This document shows positions 9,469-15,436 of a stretch of 64,000 bases of DNA, one piece after another; positions within the stretch are counted from its first letter, which is position 1; the number at the start of each line of letters is the position of its first letter. Both the position numbers and the translations under genes were made by a program. The DNA comes from Paenibacillus assamensis DSM 18201 (GTDB lineage Bacteria; Bacillota; Bacilli; Paenibacillales; Paenibacillaceae), in the NCBI RefSeq assembly GCF_000422445.1, contig NZ_AULU01000003.1, positions 186,001 to 250,000 of the forward strand, read 5' to 3'. The notes under the pieces are model-generated. The model made no database searches and was not told where the DNA came from. It was given only the letters and a program-made list of their open reading frames with translations.

Positions 9469-12213
9469 TTAAAGCAATAAATAAAGTCGGTACAGCATTC
9501 TCGTCGCCTCCCCACGAGTAACAGCCTCGCGAGCTTTAATCTGCTTATTAGCAGGAACATCAATCAAGCGCTGTTTTACTGCCAACGCCATCGTTCGCTT
9601 TGCCCAATTAGATATCGTTTTCTTGTCTTCGAATTGATTCAAGTAGACATCTGGATTTGATGGGTAAAAATAATTTTTCTTCTCATGCAAATATCGTGCG
9701 CCTATCGCAATCATTTCTTCACGAGCTATCGTCTTGTCTGGCTTAAATGTGCCATCAGGATAGCCTTTGACGATATCCTTTTTCTCAGACGAAGCGATAT
9801 AGGGATGATGCCACTGCGGAGACTGGACATCTGAAAAGCTCTCCGTCGCCGTTTTATCCAACGCGTAAAAAGCTTTAACTAACATCGATGTGAACTCTGC
9901 ACGGGTTATCAATGTATCTGGTTCAAACTTGCCACCGGCTTTCCCTTTCACAATTCCTTTAGAGGCCAGAAATTGAACGGCTTGCTGGAGCTCTGGATCT
10001 CGACCCTCCATATCAGGGAAAGAGGTAGCATTATCACCCAAATAATACGTGCCAGGACGGTTAATTTCAGCTTCCACTCCATTTTTGTACGGATTGAACT
10101 TTCCACCGATCGGATCCGTCGTAGTCCCATCCGAATAAAACACACTGTTATTGGTTGCATCCGACTGACTCGCGGGCAAAATAAGCCCGATGTTGCTTGC
10201 TACACTCGCAAGCTCTCTTCCTTGTTCATCTAAAAATTGTACGCGATATCCACCGTTCGTTTCTTTGACCACATGAATAACGATAACAGGATACGAATGG
10301 AACAGACGATCTGCAGTCGCAACATGAATCATTAACTTCGCATCTCCTGCATGTACGGTAATATAATCGATATCTTTACGACCGATTAAGCTATCTTTAT
10401 GCAGCATGAACGTATAACCATTTTGACCAGGTGAAGACAAAACTTCCCCATTAACAACTAACTCTCTAGCAAGAACAATTCCGCTTTCTGATAGCGATTG
10501 CTCCACCTCGGATTTAGCCTTTAGCGCACTACCAGCTATACGGTTCATCAACTCAGCGTTAATGACTACTTGTCCATTTACAGGAACCGGCTGCTCGCTG
10601 CTTGCAGCTGTAATAACGAGCTCTCCGGCTTGTATCAGCCCCTCCACAATATACGGCTTCTGTTTGTCAGCGGCAGGTACCGTGCGCACAGCAGTGTAAT
10701 ACGTATCGCTCAGCCTATTACTGTCAGCCACATATAGCATAAAATAGGCGAATACGTCCGGATAACCCGTTCTAGTTCCGGTTGCCCGCACAATTGTCTG
10801 CCCCGGTTTATTGGCTACTACGACTGGTGTACCATTCACATACGATATGCTCCCTATACTCGGATCATCTATCGTGTAAGTTACCTTGGTCCCAGGTAGC
10901 AGATTGTTAACCGCAATAGACTGATTTCCACCAGGCGGGAGCATTGTGACATATGGATACAGGCTAATATCCGGAGCTGTTCGCACCCTTGGTTCGCTTG
11001 TTGTTGTCGTTGTCTTAGGTTTATCGCCTGTTTGTTTATCAGATCGTTTATCTGTATGGCTATCTGTTGGGGTGCCCGTTTGGCCTGCTTGGTTACCTAC
11101 TGTTCCAGATTCACCACGCTGCTCCATTCTTTTCGTGAACACAACAAGCTTAGGATAATCAGAAGCACTTTCCCACGCCCACAATGTCTGATCTTCTTTT
11201 AATACATGATATCTTTTTGGGCCACTTGGTTCCCTTTGATGTACAGAAACGATATTCTTCAGTTCGGGAAAGACCTTTTCACTTTCCAAAGACCAGAGCT
11301 GGCCATCCTTTCGGAATGCATACATTTTGTCGAGATTGGGATCTCTAAGAAAATCCAATTGAACAATCGTTCGCACGTCTGCTGCTGTATGTACTTGAAC
11401 AGGAGCATTGTCGTCTCGATATGTTCGCCAGGACCAAACCGTTCCATCCTGCTTATAGGCATAACTTGTAATAGAACCTAAATCTATGTTGACAATATCA
11501 CTAAGCCCCGTAATTTGTTCAACCGTTTTGCTGCTAGATCGGTTATGCGGAAAATACGAGCTTGATCTCCATTTCCACACCGAACCGTCCTTTTTAATCG
11601 CAAATACATGGCCTCCAATTGATTGTAAGGATGCAACATCATCTAGCAGCTTCATTTGTTCCAGTGAGGATTTCGCATTTTTAGAGTTGCCTGTTCTCCT
11701 TCCCCACGTCCATACAGAGCCGTCAGATTTTAATACGAACAAAACTTTGTAATTACCATCGAATTTAGCAACGAATGAAGTCACGTTACTCAACTCTTTA
11801 ATAAGTAGCGGATCACTCGTAGGATATGGTAGATTATCTGTACGCTTGGCATCCCAATACCAGACGGTTCCGTCTTTTTTTAGCGCAACATATCCACGAA
11901 TATCCTTACTACTTCCACTTCCTCTAACATCGATCTGCTTTACATCTTTCAATCCTGGAATTTGTACCATATGAGCTTTGTAGACCGTGTCCGACGTGTA
12001 ATGAGATAATCCATTGTTGATATACCATATCCAAGCTGTTCCATCCTTCTTCGAAGATAGCACTTGCTCGTCAAGAATGTCATAATCCTCGCCCACACGT
12101 GTATAGTGCTGCTCGCTGACGACCTTCTTATCGCTTTGAATGGCTTGAACCGTTCCTGAATGAGCCGTCAAAATTAACATCAAGCTTATTAGTGCTGCCA
12201 TGTACCGTTTCAT
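9469..12213 (-). CDS. secreted SLH-domain protein with RCC1-like repeats
   Basis: A 914-residue exported surface protein. It has a signal peptide at residues 1-24 (ending TVQA). Residues 30-355 carry at least six degenerate repeats built on KKDGTVWYW / KSDGSVWTWG, the bacterial RCC1-like propeller pattern. Next come a Thr/Ser/Lys-rich linker (about 360-405), an Ig-like (Big) segment (about 415-495) and an uncharacterised beta-rich part (about 500-690). Three C-terminal SLH units follow (FLASKGIVKGKAGGKFEPD; KKDIVKGYPDGTFKPD; the last ends EAVTRGEATRMLYRLY). SLH repeats bind pyruvylated secondary cell-wall polymer, so the protein is anchored to the wall. The propeller may bind ligand or protein; its function is unknown. 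Confidence 0.85.
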   Translation of the reverse strand: MKRYMAALISLMLILTAHSGTVQAIQSDKKVVSEQHYTRVGEDYDILDEQVLSSKKDGTAWIWYINNGLSHYTSDTVYKAHMVQIPGLKDVKQIDVRGSGSSKDIRGYVALKKDGTVWYWDAKRTDNLPYPTSDPLLIKELSNVTSFVAKFDGNYKVLFVLKSDGSVWTWGRRTGNSKNAKSSLEQMKLLDDVASLQSIGGHVFAIKKDGSVWKWRSSSYFPHNRSSSKTVEQITGLSDIVNIDLGSITSYAYKQDGTVWSWRTYRDDNAPVQVHTAADVRTIVQLDFLRDPNLDKMYAFRKDGQLWSLESEKVFPELKNIVSVHQREPSGPKRYHVLKEDQTLWAWESASDYPKLVVFTKRMEQRGESGTVGNQAGQTGTPTDSHTDKRSDKQTGDKPKTTTTTSEPRVRTAPDISLYPYVTMLPPGGNQSIAVNNLLPGTKVTYTIDDPSIGSISYVNGTPVVVANKPGQTIVRATGTRTGYPDVFAYFMLYVADSNRLSDTYYTAVRTVPAADKQKPYIVEGLIQAGELVITAASSEQPVPVNGQVVINAELMNRIAGSALKAKSEVEQSLSESGIVLARELVVNGEVLSSPGQNGYTFMLHKDSLIGRKDIDYITVHAGDAKLMIHVATADRLFHSYPVIVIHVVKETNGGYRVQFLDEQGRELASVASNIGLILPASQSDATNNSVFYSDGTTTDPIGGKFNPYKNGVEAEINRPGTYYLGDNATSFPDMEGRDPELQQAVQFLASKGIVKGKAGGKFEPDTLITRAEFTSMLVKAFYALDKTATESFSDVQSPQWHHPYIASSEKKDIVKGYPDGTFKPDKTIAREEMIAIGARYLHEKKNYFYPSNPDVYLNQFEDKKTISNWAKRTMALAVKQRLIDVPANKQIKAREAVTRGEATRMLYRLYLLL

Positions 12214-12555
12214 TGTTGACCTCCACCATTTCTCCTTCAGTTCTCAACATTCAATCTTCATAGCCTACGGTAAGCAGATTGCTTGTCCTACTCTCCCATT
12301 CGCCTACTTACTACTATTTCTCTATTTAATTATCGGGAAAAGTAGATTGGAAAGTTAATATTTCCTAAACAATTAATAATATTGTAACTTTTTATAGTTA
12401 TTGATTTTTTAAAATATTTTTTCGAATTATAAATTTAACCAGAAACATTTTGTATCATCCAAAAGAATGAAATTAACTTTATACCTTAGAAAAACGTTAT
12501 TGAAACTACAAGAGAAATAAAAGAAGGGCGGATATCCGCCCCCCTCTTTCATTGA
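12214..12555. other. AT-rich intergenic region
   Basis: It holds the ribosome-binding site and presumed promoter of the SLH-protein gene (minus strand, lower end) and the terminator of the SbnA/MFS operon (upper end). The middle, about 12340-12480, is strongly AT-rich. No open frame of note is seen. Confidence 0.5.
12514..12543 (-). terminator. terminator of the SbnA-like/MFS operon
   Basis: The perfect palindrome GGGCGGATATCCGCCC (12526-12541) is followed on the minus strand by TTCTTTTATTTC. Confidence 0.8.
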
Positions 12556-13758
12556 TTACGAAAATGAAGATTCCTGACTCCCTCTTACATCCTCACTCCG
12601 ATACAAAGGAAGCAGCAGGCAAGCCACAAAGCACAATACCGCACACGTCATAAACATGATGTGAAACGATAACAAATCAGCGAGCAACCCCATCACTAAA
12701 GCCCCCAAGGCAAAGCCAAGATCAGCTGCACCGATAAACAATCCAAGTAAAAATCCTCTTGCCTGTTCAGGCACAGAAAACGATACAAACGTGAGCAGCG
12801 CAGGATACAGCATCGCAAATGCAATTCCGTTCAAGACTGCCGCGAGCAGCAAAATCGGCCCATATATAAACGAACTCAGCAGCAAGCTACCCACACTTGC
12901 CAACAAACTCATTATGAGCACGAGTCGTATCGGTGTTTCTCCATTAGACGGTATACGGCTTCGCCCTATAAATCGGCATAACACGAGCACAACGGTCTGC
13001 GTCAAAAAATAGAGACTTCCCCAAGTAGATTGTTGATTTTCCAGATGTATGGGAAGGAAGGTGAAGATAGCTCCATTCGCAATGGAAGCGAACAGCATAA
13101 TCGTTGAGGATACGAGCAGCTTGCGATTTTTCCACAGCCCCGACGGCTGTACATCGACTACTTCAGGGGCGAGTGTGTGCAATTGGTTCGTCTTAGACCG
13201 CGCTACGATAAGGGCAAATACTACATTCACCATACCTAGCACGACAAATCCAACAAAGATTTCAGTCATAGATGCGATATCCTTCAAATAAAGAGCCGCG
13301 GCTGGTCCAAAGGTTGACGGTATCATCGTAGCAAGTGAATATAGGGATAGTCCCTGCCCCCTCACTTTGTCAGAAAGAAGGTCAATCGTAATAATCTCCA
13401 TTGCAGTGGAAAAAAAGGCGGCCACGATCCCTTGAATAATACGGACAGCTCCGATGATCCATAGTTCAGGGACGAAATAACCAAGCAAAGATACCGCAAA
13501 CACGATTAGCACGATAACAAAAATACGGCTAGCCCCATGACGATCAATGAGCTTACCTGCAATAGGTCTTGCAAACATGGATGTTAGCATTGTTGCGCCC
13601 ATAAGGAGCCCGATATCGGTTTTGGTAGCATTCAGCGACAATGCATAGAACGGAACTATCATCAGAACCATATAGACAATGGCGTAAAATACAATCGTAA
13701 TCGCATAAATTTTCAAGGCCTGTGGTGAAAATGGATTGTCTCGCTCCCTACTAATCAT
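12556..13758 (-). CDS. MFS exporter paired with the SbnA-like gene
   Basis: A 400-residue, 12-segment major facilitator. The motif A loop reads GKLIDRHGASRIFV and the helix 4-5 region EIITIDLLSDKVRGQGLSLY. Its start ATG overlaps the stop of the SbnA-like gene (ATGA), so the two are translationally coupled. Members next to metallophore genes (SbnD, CntE-type) export the finished siderophore, and the coupling suggests that this one exports the product of the SbnA-like enzyme. Drug export is the alternative. A terminator follows. Confidence 0.8.
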   Translation of the reverse strand: MISRERDNPFSPQALKIYAITIVFYAIVYMVLMIVPFYALSLNATKTDIGLLMGATMLTSMFARPIAGKLIDRHGASRIFVIVLIVFAVSLLGYFVPELWIIGAVRIIQGIVAAFFSTAMEIITIDLLSDKVRGQGLSLYSLATMIPSTFGPAAALYLKDIASMTEIFVGFVVLGMVNVVFALIVARSKTNQLHTLAPEVVDVQPSGLWKNRKLLVSSTIMLFASIANGAIFTFLPIHLENQQSTWGSLYFLTQTVVLVLCRFIGRSRIPSNGETPIRLVLIMSLLASVGSLLLSSFIYGPILLLAAVLNGIAFAMLYPALLTFVSFSVPEQARGFLLGLFIGAADLGFALGALVMGLLADLLSFHIMFMTCAVLCFVACLLLPLYRSEDVRGSQESSFS

Positions 13759-14858
13759 CCAGCTGCCTCATCCGCAATATACTGCCGGCTTGGCGAGTCC
13801 AATAAATATTCAAGCTCAGGCTTGTAGTTGGCTGTCTCGATCGGATTGATACTATAAGGTGCAAGACGTGAAACTCTCTCTAGCAAATGAGTCGGATTCA
13901 GCGTCGTATCCAAGTTGCGCTCCCGCATCCATTCATCATTGTATATCGTGGACAAATAGCGCTCACCATTGTCTGAAGCAATGCATACGATTCGTTGTTT
14001 CTTGCTGCTCTCTCCTTGTAATGCAAGCTTCAAAGCTACTATCATTCCCGCTCCTGTCGAGCCCCCGCACATAATACCTTCATACTTTGCCATCATCCTG
14101 CACATCATAAACGAATCTTCATCGGCTGCTTTGTACACTGCATCAATACGATTCAGATCATCGATATTGGTCGGGGTCCAACTGAGGCCCATGCCTGGCA
14201 ACAAATATGAATGAGCTTGTCCTCCGAAAATCGTCGAACCTACAGCATCAACCGCCACCACCTTCACATGCGGTGCATGTTCTCGGAAATAGCGGGAAAA
14301 GCCGCCAACCTGCCCACCTGTGCTCACTGTTAATACGACAGCATCAAGCTCTCCCCCGCATTGCTCGAACAGCTCTTGTGCCGTTCCTTTGTAGTGCGCT
14401 TCTCCATTAAGCGGGCTAAAGCATTGGTCAGGTCTAAAAGAGTTGGAAATCTCTCGATGCAGCTTGTTCGCAAGCGCAATTCTCGTCTTATGGTAAGATC
14501 CACTGTCATCCTGTTCCGTCACCACAATAACCTCGGCTCCATACGCCTTAAGCAGCGCCAAGTTCGTTGGCGTCGTTTTCGGATCAACCAGTATAATGAC
14601 GCGATAACCACGCGCCGCCCCAATCATCGCCAATGAAATTCCGAAGTTACCCGATGAAGATTCGATAATCGTTCCTCCAGGTCGCAGCCAGCCTCGACGC
14701 TCCGCTTCCTTTACGATATACAGCGCTGGGCGGTCTTTAATGCTGCCTCCGGGATTCGTTCGCTCTAGCTTCAATCGAATATCATATCGATCACTATCTA
14801 CTAAATTACGCAGTTGTACCAATGGCGAATAGCCAACAGTATCCAATATCGTTATCAT
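13755..14858 (-). CDS. SbnA-like N-(2-amino-2-carboxyethyl)-L-glutamate synthase (PLP enzyme)
   Basis: A 367-residue fold-type II PLP enzyme. The Schiff-base lysine lies in NPGGSIKDRPALYI, the phosphate-binding loop is ESSSGNFGISLAMI, and VDPKTTPTNLALLKAYGAEV and YEGIMCGGSTGAG follow. These segments match SbnA of Staphylococcus, which joins O-phosphoserine and glutamate on the way to 2,3-diaminopropionate, better than cysteine synthase (TSGNTG). The usual partner SbnB, an NAD-dependent enzyme that releases diaminopropionate, is absent here. I chose the start at 14856-14858, after AAGGAGGG. The gene overlaps the downstream exporter. Possible roles are metallophore, antibiotic or opine-like synthesis. 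Confidence 0.75.
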   Translation of the reverse strand: MITILDTVGYSPLVQLRNLVDSDRYDIRLKLERTNPGGSIKDRPALYIVKEAERRGWLRPGGTIIESSSGNFGISLAMIGAARGYRVIILVDPKTTPTNLALLKAYGAEVIVVTEQDDSGSYHKTRIALANKLHREISNSFRPDQCFSPLNGEAHYKGTAQELFEQCGGELDAVVLTVSTGGQVGGFSRYFREHAPHVKVVAVDAVGSTIFGGQAHSYLLPGMGLSWTPTNIDDLNRIDAVYKAADEDSFMMCRMMAKYEGIMCGGSTGAGMIVALKLALQGESSKKQRIVCIASDNGERYLSTIYNDEWMRERNLDTTLNPTHLLERVSRLAPYSINPIETANYKPELEYLLDSPSRQYIADEAAG

Positions 14859-14993
14859 CAATTCCCTCCTTTTTTGAGAAGTCGGGTTAATAGACTCCAC
14901 CTTGAAACAAATCCTATTTATCTTCCCTTTTTTTTCGGAATTTGGATTTATCTAGACTCCCGCATCGAATCGCTTGGCCGCTAGAATAGTTCC

Positions 14994-15433
14994 TCAGATA
15001 TAAATGGAAGCTGATAGTGTCAGCATGGACTCGGCTCTTGATTGGATACTATAACCATACCTCTGTAATAGATTTAATGTATCACGTGGGTTCATTTCTG
15101 AAAATGACTCTTTCGAGTTATATGGAGGGTTTAAAAGTTGGGTTGGTGTGATGTCAATAAGTGTGGAGTGCATCTTGCTACCAACTACAATATTTTGCGG
15201 CTTCAAACCTGTGAATAAATACCTTGCTGATGTATAACTGAAATCGCAGCTAGTAGAGGAAGCATTGTATGTATGAGCAGCTCTCTAGAAGCTGTTGGCG
15301 TAAGATCTGAAGATTGAAAAAGTTAATCCAACAGCTTCATAATACTAGGGTGTTGAAACTTAGACAGGATTGCTACTTCCTGCATAAATGCTTGTTTATA
15401 TTCCAACAACGAAGCAAGAGGCTTACCTTTCAT
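14994..15433 (-). pseudogene. Ser/Thr protein kinase remnant with frameshifts
   Basis: Three pieces in different frames line up with a Hanks-type kinase. At 15323-15433 the frame reads FMQEVAILSKFQHPSIMKLLD, the C-helix and the next strand. At about 15203-15260 another reads AAISVIHQQGIYSQ, the lead-in to the catalytic loop. At 14994-15206 a third reads GLKPQNIVVGSKMHSTLID. The HRD motif is destroyed at the junction of pieces two and three, the DFG position reads LIDI, and the N-terminal glycine loop is gone. The gene is clearly inactive. It abuts the end of the flavodoxin gene. Confidence 0.65.
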
Positions 15434-15436
15434 CTC

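Follow-up and report, generated by a model that had tools for sequence, protein, structure and literature searches.

Production of the fungal zinc chelator aspergillomarasmine A demonstrates that one synthase can suffice to assemble such a molecule from phosphoserine and aspartate (PMC8319579, PMC12751119). The responsible enzyme is a single PLP-dependent synthase with the cysteine synthase fold that adds phosphoserine to an amino acid; its cluster is very small and its product is itself the chelator (PMC8319579, PMC12751119). Among bacteria, the ethylenediamine-disuccinate of Amycolatopsis is an aminopolycarboxylate zincophore under Zur control (PMC6103462), and in SbnA, the related enzyme of the staphyloferrin B cluster, selectivity for phosphoserine has been attributed to residues Arg132, Tyr152 and Ser185 (PMC12414870). 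A further point of comparison is provided by the staphylopine- and bacillopaline-type systems, composed of CntLM, CntE and CntABCDF. The locus described here resembles the fungal system in its presumed mechanism and its very small size, but is bacterial; it shares a fold with SbnA, though no NIS synthetase is linked to it as in the staphyloferrin B cluster; and it has in common with the staphylopine-type systems an exporter of the CntE family and, in related bacteria, an ABC importer of the Nik/Cnt type.

The locus lies within a 64,000-nucleotide stretch of the Paenibacillus assamensis DSM 18201 genome, hereafter referred to as the window, and consists of two intact open reading frames on the minus strand. 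The first (13755..14858) encodes a 367-amino acid SbnA-like, PLP-dependent beta-substitution synthase distinguished by an RPDQCF motif and a C-terminal extension, both clade-specific, and is preceded by a ribosome-binding site, GGAGG (14864..14870, minus strand), 5' of the ATG at 14858. The second (12556..13758) encodes a 400-amino acid CntE-family MFS exporter. As the initial annotation had described, the stop codon of the enzyme gene and the start codon of the exporter gene overlap in an ATGA (13755..13758, minus strand), read directly from the sequence, and a single terminator follows both genes, in the form of a terminator-like intrinsic hairpin of 13 pairs with a T-rich tail (12519..12548, minus strand). 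The overlap recurs in four related loci (L007, L008, L014 and L015) and suggests that enzyme and exporter are translationally coupled. Also in keeping with that annotation, no gene for SbnB, an NRPS or an NIS synthetase adjoins the pair; an Rfam search of the locus returned no match. Directly downstream, a 914-amino acid protein with RCC1-like repeats and SLH domains is encoded (9469-12213, minus strand), and this neighbor is kept in L007 and L008. Upstream lies a frame-broken remnant (14901..15436, minus strand) previously termed a kinase pseudogene; the broken frame is present, but its identity as a putative protein kinase is weak, as it derives from a single 37-amino acid fragment with a best Pfam kinase E-value of 0.026, and the remnant was judged to lie outside the module. 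An APH-type kinase gene 5' of a further Paenibacillus locus (L030), considered as a conserved phosphoserine-making partner, was unmatched in every other fetched locus and did not match the upstream remnant of the window, and was therefore rejected in that role.

The top curated family for the enzyme is SbnA (TIGR03945), at 319.8 bits, which nonetheless falls below the curated cut-off of 349.95 bits, a threshold exceeded by two further genes in this genome (419 and 408 bits). The best solved-structure matches of an AlphaFold model of the enzyme (pLDDT 86.7) are the SbnA structures 5d84-5d87, with 5d84 ranking first at 40% identity and a TM-score (target) of 0.91. In a phylogenetic tree the window clade and SbnA are joined and split from CysK/CBS-type enzymes with support of 100/100, and the enzyme clade is separate at 98/98, sister to SbnA rather than nested within it, although the long branches at this placement call for some caution. 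The initial description of the enzyme as SbnA-type is thus sound as a statement of its nearest family by sequence, fold and tree, but not as curated membership. Enzyme and SbnA share their fold, PLP lysine and active-site loop, and Arg132 and Ser185 of SbnA are kept across the whole enzyme clade, whereas the CysK/CBS-like rows of the alignment lack them. In contrast, the position of Tyr152 is occupied by Cys in all clade members, inside the invariant RPDQCF, and the clade carries a conserved C-terminal extension, modelled with fair confidence, of approximately 45 residues past the end of SbnA (invariant residues Ser336, Pro339, Asn344, Leu349, Leu353 and Pro356 in the clade alignment). Since the SbnA residues are in part kept and in part changed, and a tail of its own is present, the clade is, as judged from sequence, a distinct SbnA-like subfamily with a predicted altered pocket. 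By the same comparisons the enzyme classifies as neither a curated SbnA nor a cysteine synthase, and is probably phosphoserine-dependent.

CntE proteins are the exporters of staphylopine-family metallophores. The initial proposal that the enzyme is coupled to its own MFS exporter holds and can be narrowed to this family, as the exporter scores 263.8 bits against NF047574, a modest margin over the curated cut-off of 235. Homologues in L009, L012, L020 and L131 likewise score above the cut-off, while an unrelated MFS protein of the same genome falls under it. Elsewhere in the Paenibacillaceae, a CntE-family gene adjoins genuine CntL and CntM genes (L140; 680.8 bits). NikABCD-CntE-NikE operons were also observed in L130-L136, L138 and L144, combining importer and exporter with no recognised synthesis gene adjoining. 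In contrast to the staphylopine-type systems, no CntL or CntM gene is present at the window locus, the CntLM operons of this genome lying elsewhere with EamA exporters, and by gene content the pair is not an opine metallophore cluster.

Comparison with other genomes reveals that the two-gene unit recurs across genera. The 97% and 94% relatives (L007 and L008) have no importer linked to the pair; at 71-75% identity, relatives that all retain both genes are found in Paenibacillus, Tumebacillus, Domibacillus and one gammaproteobacterial metagenome-assembled genome (MAG). The exporter gene lies 3' of the enzyme gene in all ten close relatives inspected (L007-L015 and L033), and the two genes are adjacent in each of the four pair-holding genomes of the genus, that of the window included. 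Moreover, an uptake-type gene stands beside the pair in eight of these ten relatives: a NikABCDE importer is linked to it in L009, L014 and L015, a PepSY_TM gene lies directly upstream in L010 and L013, a second, different PepSY_TM gene lies directly downstream in L011 and L033, and a TonB-dependent receptor gene begins 33 bp downstream in L012. PepSY_TM proteins function in siderophore reduction. Together with the CntE-family exporter, these uptake-type neighbors lend independent support to the earlier suggestion that the product binds metal. The gammaproteobacterial locus (L012:620-5093), in which the enzyme is 73% identical and the pair and its TonB receptor gene sit beside birA and a pantothenate kinase gene, was likely acquired by horizontal transfer between phyla; an order-level search of eight genomes around this relative returned no further match. 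In Paenibacillus sp. L3-i20 (L171:7600-9640, the same locus as L030), the copy is broken: the enzyme gene is disrupted, with its remaining fragment continuing into part of a NikA gene, and no exporter gene is left.

At the window pair itself, no Fur, Zur, MntR, NikR or Nur box stands out 5' of the genes above shuffled background, and no Fur or Zur box was found 5' of the pair in the close clade either. While an importer is linked to the pair in P. aquistagni, none is linked to it in the species of the window, and the NikA of P. aquistagni has at best a 28% identical match in the window genome, with no close importer homologue found. The loci examined for an importer in this genome were a generic Opp/Nik-type operon and the opine-metallophore operons, which are equipped with EamA exporters of their own.

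By analogy with the fungal aspergillomarasmine synthase, we consider it moderately probable that the pair constitutes a minimal module for an aminopolycarboxylate metallophore, with direct export of the condensation product. Specifically, the enzyme would strip the phosphate from O-phospho-L-serine to yield a PLP-bound aminoacrylate, to which a second amino acid (glutamate, aspartate or similar) would add via its amino group. The resulting N-(2-amino-2-carboxyethyl)-amino acid, for which the aminocarboxyethyl-glutamate suggested initially is one candidate among others, would be a small chelator of the aminopolycarboxylate type. Because there is no SbnB to split off diaminopropionate, this condensation product would stay the end product, and it would leave the cell through the coupled CntE-type exporter. 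In the relatives, the metal complex would be retaken via the linked NikABCDE importer or TonB receptor, or with the PepSY_TM membrane protein, while in the species of the window the importer may be unlinked.

A second enzyme clade, at 55-60% identity, sits in larger operons of seven to nine genes that encode an ATP-grasp ligase, a DUF364 protein, a methyltransferase, NikABC(DE), the enzyme, usually CntE, and sometimes a GNAT protein (L139, L142, L170, L169/L018, L020 and L174-L183). The neighboring genes of the Cohnella-type operon were considered as CntKLM and ruled out, being those for the ATP-grasp, DUF364 and methyltransferase proteins. In these operons the sequence TCGTAATNATTACGA, which we take to be the box of the zinc regulator Zur, is matched in 10 of 11 distinct first-gene promoters, with L018 and L169 counted once as a single Cohnella locus, and the kinship of these rows means that the ten boxes are not ten independent events. 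Matches reach 12-14 of 14 positions, against approximately 9 in shuffled sequence, and in loci chosen without regard to zinc a match of at least 12 of 14 is met with about every 130-370 kb. In the window genome, the best matches to TCGTAATNATTACGA lie beside znuA, a cobW-type GTPase gene and a NikABC-CntL-CntM operon, a distribution that supports its reading as a zinc box. Each of the two enzyme clades is paired with a CntE branch of its own, so that the association carries more weight than one inherited linkage would. Taken together, these features mark the larger operon as a candidate for a new zincophore pathway, comparable to that of the actinobacterial ethylenediamine-disuccinate by its presumed product type and Zur control. 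Given that no Zur or Fur box is found at the window pair, the zinc link of this sister clade should not simply be transferred to it. In Bacillus sp. OV322 (L016:3162-9859), the setting differs: the gene for a 60% identical enzyme is accompanied by those for an MdtH-type MFS protein and three ATP-grasp ligases, one of them RimK-type, and the locus possibly makes a peptide-type product.

Several other explanations for the pair were weighed. That the enzyme is an unusual cysteine, cystathionine or cysteate synthase accompanied by an amino acid exporter is suggested by the common fold family and by CBS- and CysK-type profiles, which reach 240-290 bits; all of these scores are far under their own cut-offs, however, and the placement outside CysK/CBS, which answers the question raised at the outset of whether the enzyme belongs among the cysteine synthases, the retained Arg132 and Ser185, and a separate CysK-type gene on contig C19 render this explanation highly improbable. 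Equally slight is the probability that the enzyme feeds a diaminopropionate pathway in trans, using an SbnB encoded elsewhere in the service of an NRPS, DdaG-like or NIS cluster. The genome does hold two SbnB genes and an NIS cluster, and the search for such genes that the initial annotation had proposed was therefore positive for the genome, but none is linked to the pair. One SbnB-SbnA locus, on contig C11 (L125:7829-11099), adjoins a homologue of the DdaG-like fumarate-diaminopropionate ligase and may direct a dapdiamide-like product, while the second lies on contig C1 in an NRPS/PKS region, as recognised from ORF sizes and sequence starts. The NIS siderophore cluster, on contig C5 (L164:3940-14975), encodes SbnC- and SbnF-like synthetases, an aldolase and a decarboxylase. 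Against a shared pathway, each SbnB gene stands beside its own bona fide SbnA gene (the two that score 419 and 408 bits), the C5 cluster has a diaminobutyrate transaminase in place of SbnA/SbnB, and the gene coupled to that of the window enzyme encodes an exporter rather than a dehydrogenase. Contig C4 additionally carries two tandem, opine-type NikABC-CntL-CntM-EamA operons (L195:11344-18030 and L196:4997-11493), the second with a perfect Zur box. None of these loci includes the window pair or obviously needs it.

It was also proposed initially that the pair might be what is left of a larger cluster, and one could envisage a metallophore operon already stripped of its genes for synthesis and uptake and in the course of elimination. 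The operons of seven to nine genes in the related clade, the importer present in P. aquistagni and missing here, and the deletion scar across the enzyme, exporter and NikA genes of strain L3-i20 are each consistent with such decay. Comparison with L007 and L008, however, yields dN/dS values of 0.036-0.046 for the enzyme and 0.10-0.12 for the exporter, and since both are far below 1, both genes are maintained by selection. Furthermore, the coupling and terminator are intact, and throughout the close clade the pair as a rule stands as a two-gene unit, unaccompanied by genes for ATP-grasp, DUF364 or methyltransferase proteins. Such strong purifying selection, and the recurrence of the unit across genera and in the gammaproteobacterial MAG, run counter to the initial proposal; the pair is probably not a dying remnant, and its origin by ongoing loss from a larger operon appears very unlikely. 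Somewhat less remote, but still unlikely, is a small amino acid-like compound of the same chemistry made and exported for antagonism or signalling, much as an antimetabolite would be. No importer is linked to the pair in the window, L007 or L008, no metal-regulator box was found, and the fungal marasmins, from plant pathogens, have been recognised both as toxins and as chelators (PMC12751119). Weighing against such a role are the adjacent uptake-type genes of eight of the ten close relatives, which are of several unrelated kinds, and the exporter family, which is that of metallophores.

The reading of the pair as a metallophore module concerns a known kind of function, metallophore synthesis and export; what is new here is the minimal SbnA-like and CntE module. 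In the literature searched on nickelophore, EDDS and DUF364 metallophore clusters, with subscription papers outside its reach, neither the pair nor the larger operon is described, and no description of such an aminopolycarboxylate metallophore class was found. More broadly, though with a likelihood that falls a little short of even, the data may point to a horizontally moving two-gene SbnA-like and CntE system making an aspergillomarasmine-like metallophore in one enzymatic step, whose sister enzymes would be central to a Zur-controlled zincophore cluster not yet described (ATP-grasp, DUF364, methyltransferase, NikABC(DE), SbnA-like and CntE); this cluster occurs in Cohnella, Saccharibacillus and Paenibacillus, and Lachnospiraceae have clusters related to it. 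The larger operon with its zinc-type boxes offers a testable zincophore pathway, and is the most valuable side result of the analysis. Most known bacterial metallophores take several enzymes, whereas one enzyme and one exporter may do here. If this is true, bacteria would have an equivalent of fungal aspergillomarasmine, which is known to inhibit metallo-beta-lactamases, and the RPDQCF SbnA-like clade beside CntE would provide a clear marker with which to mine genomes for aminopolycarboxylate metallophores.
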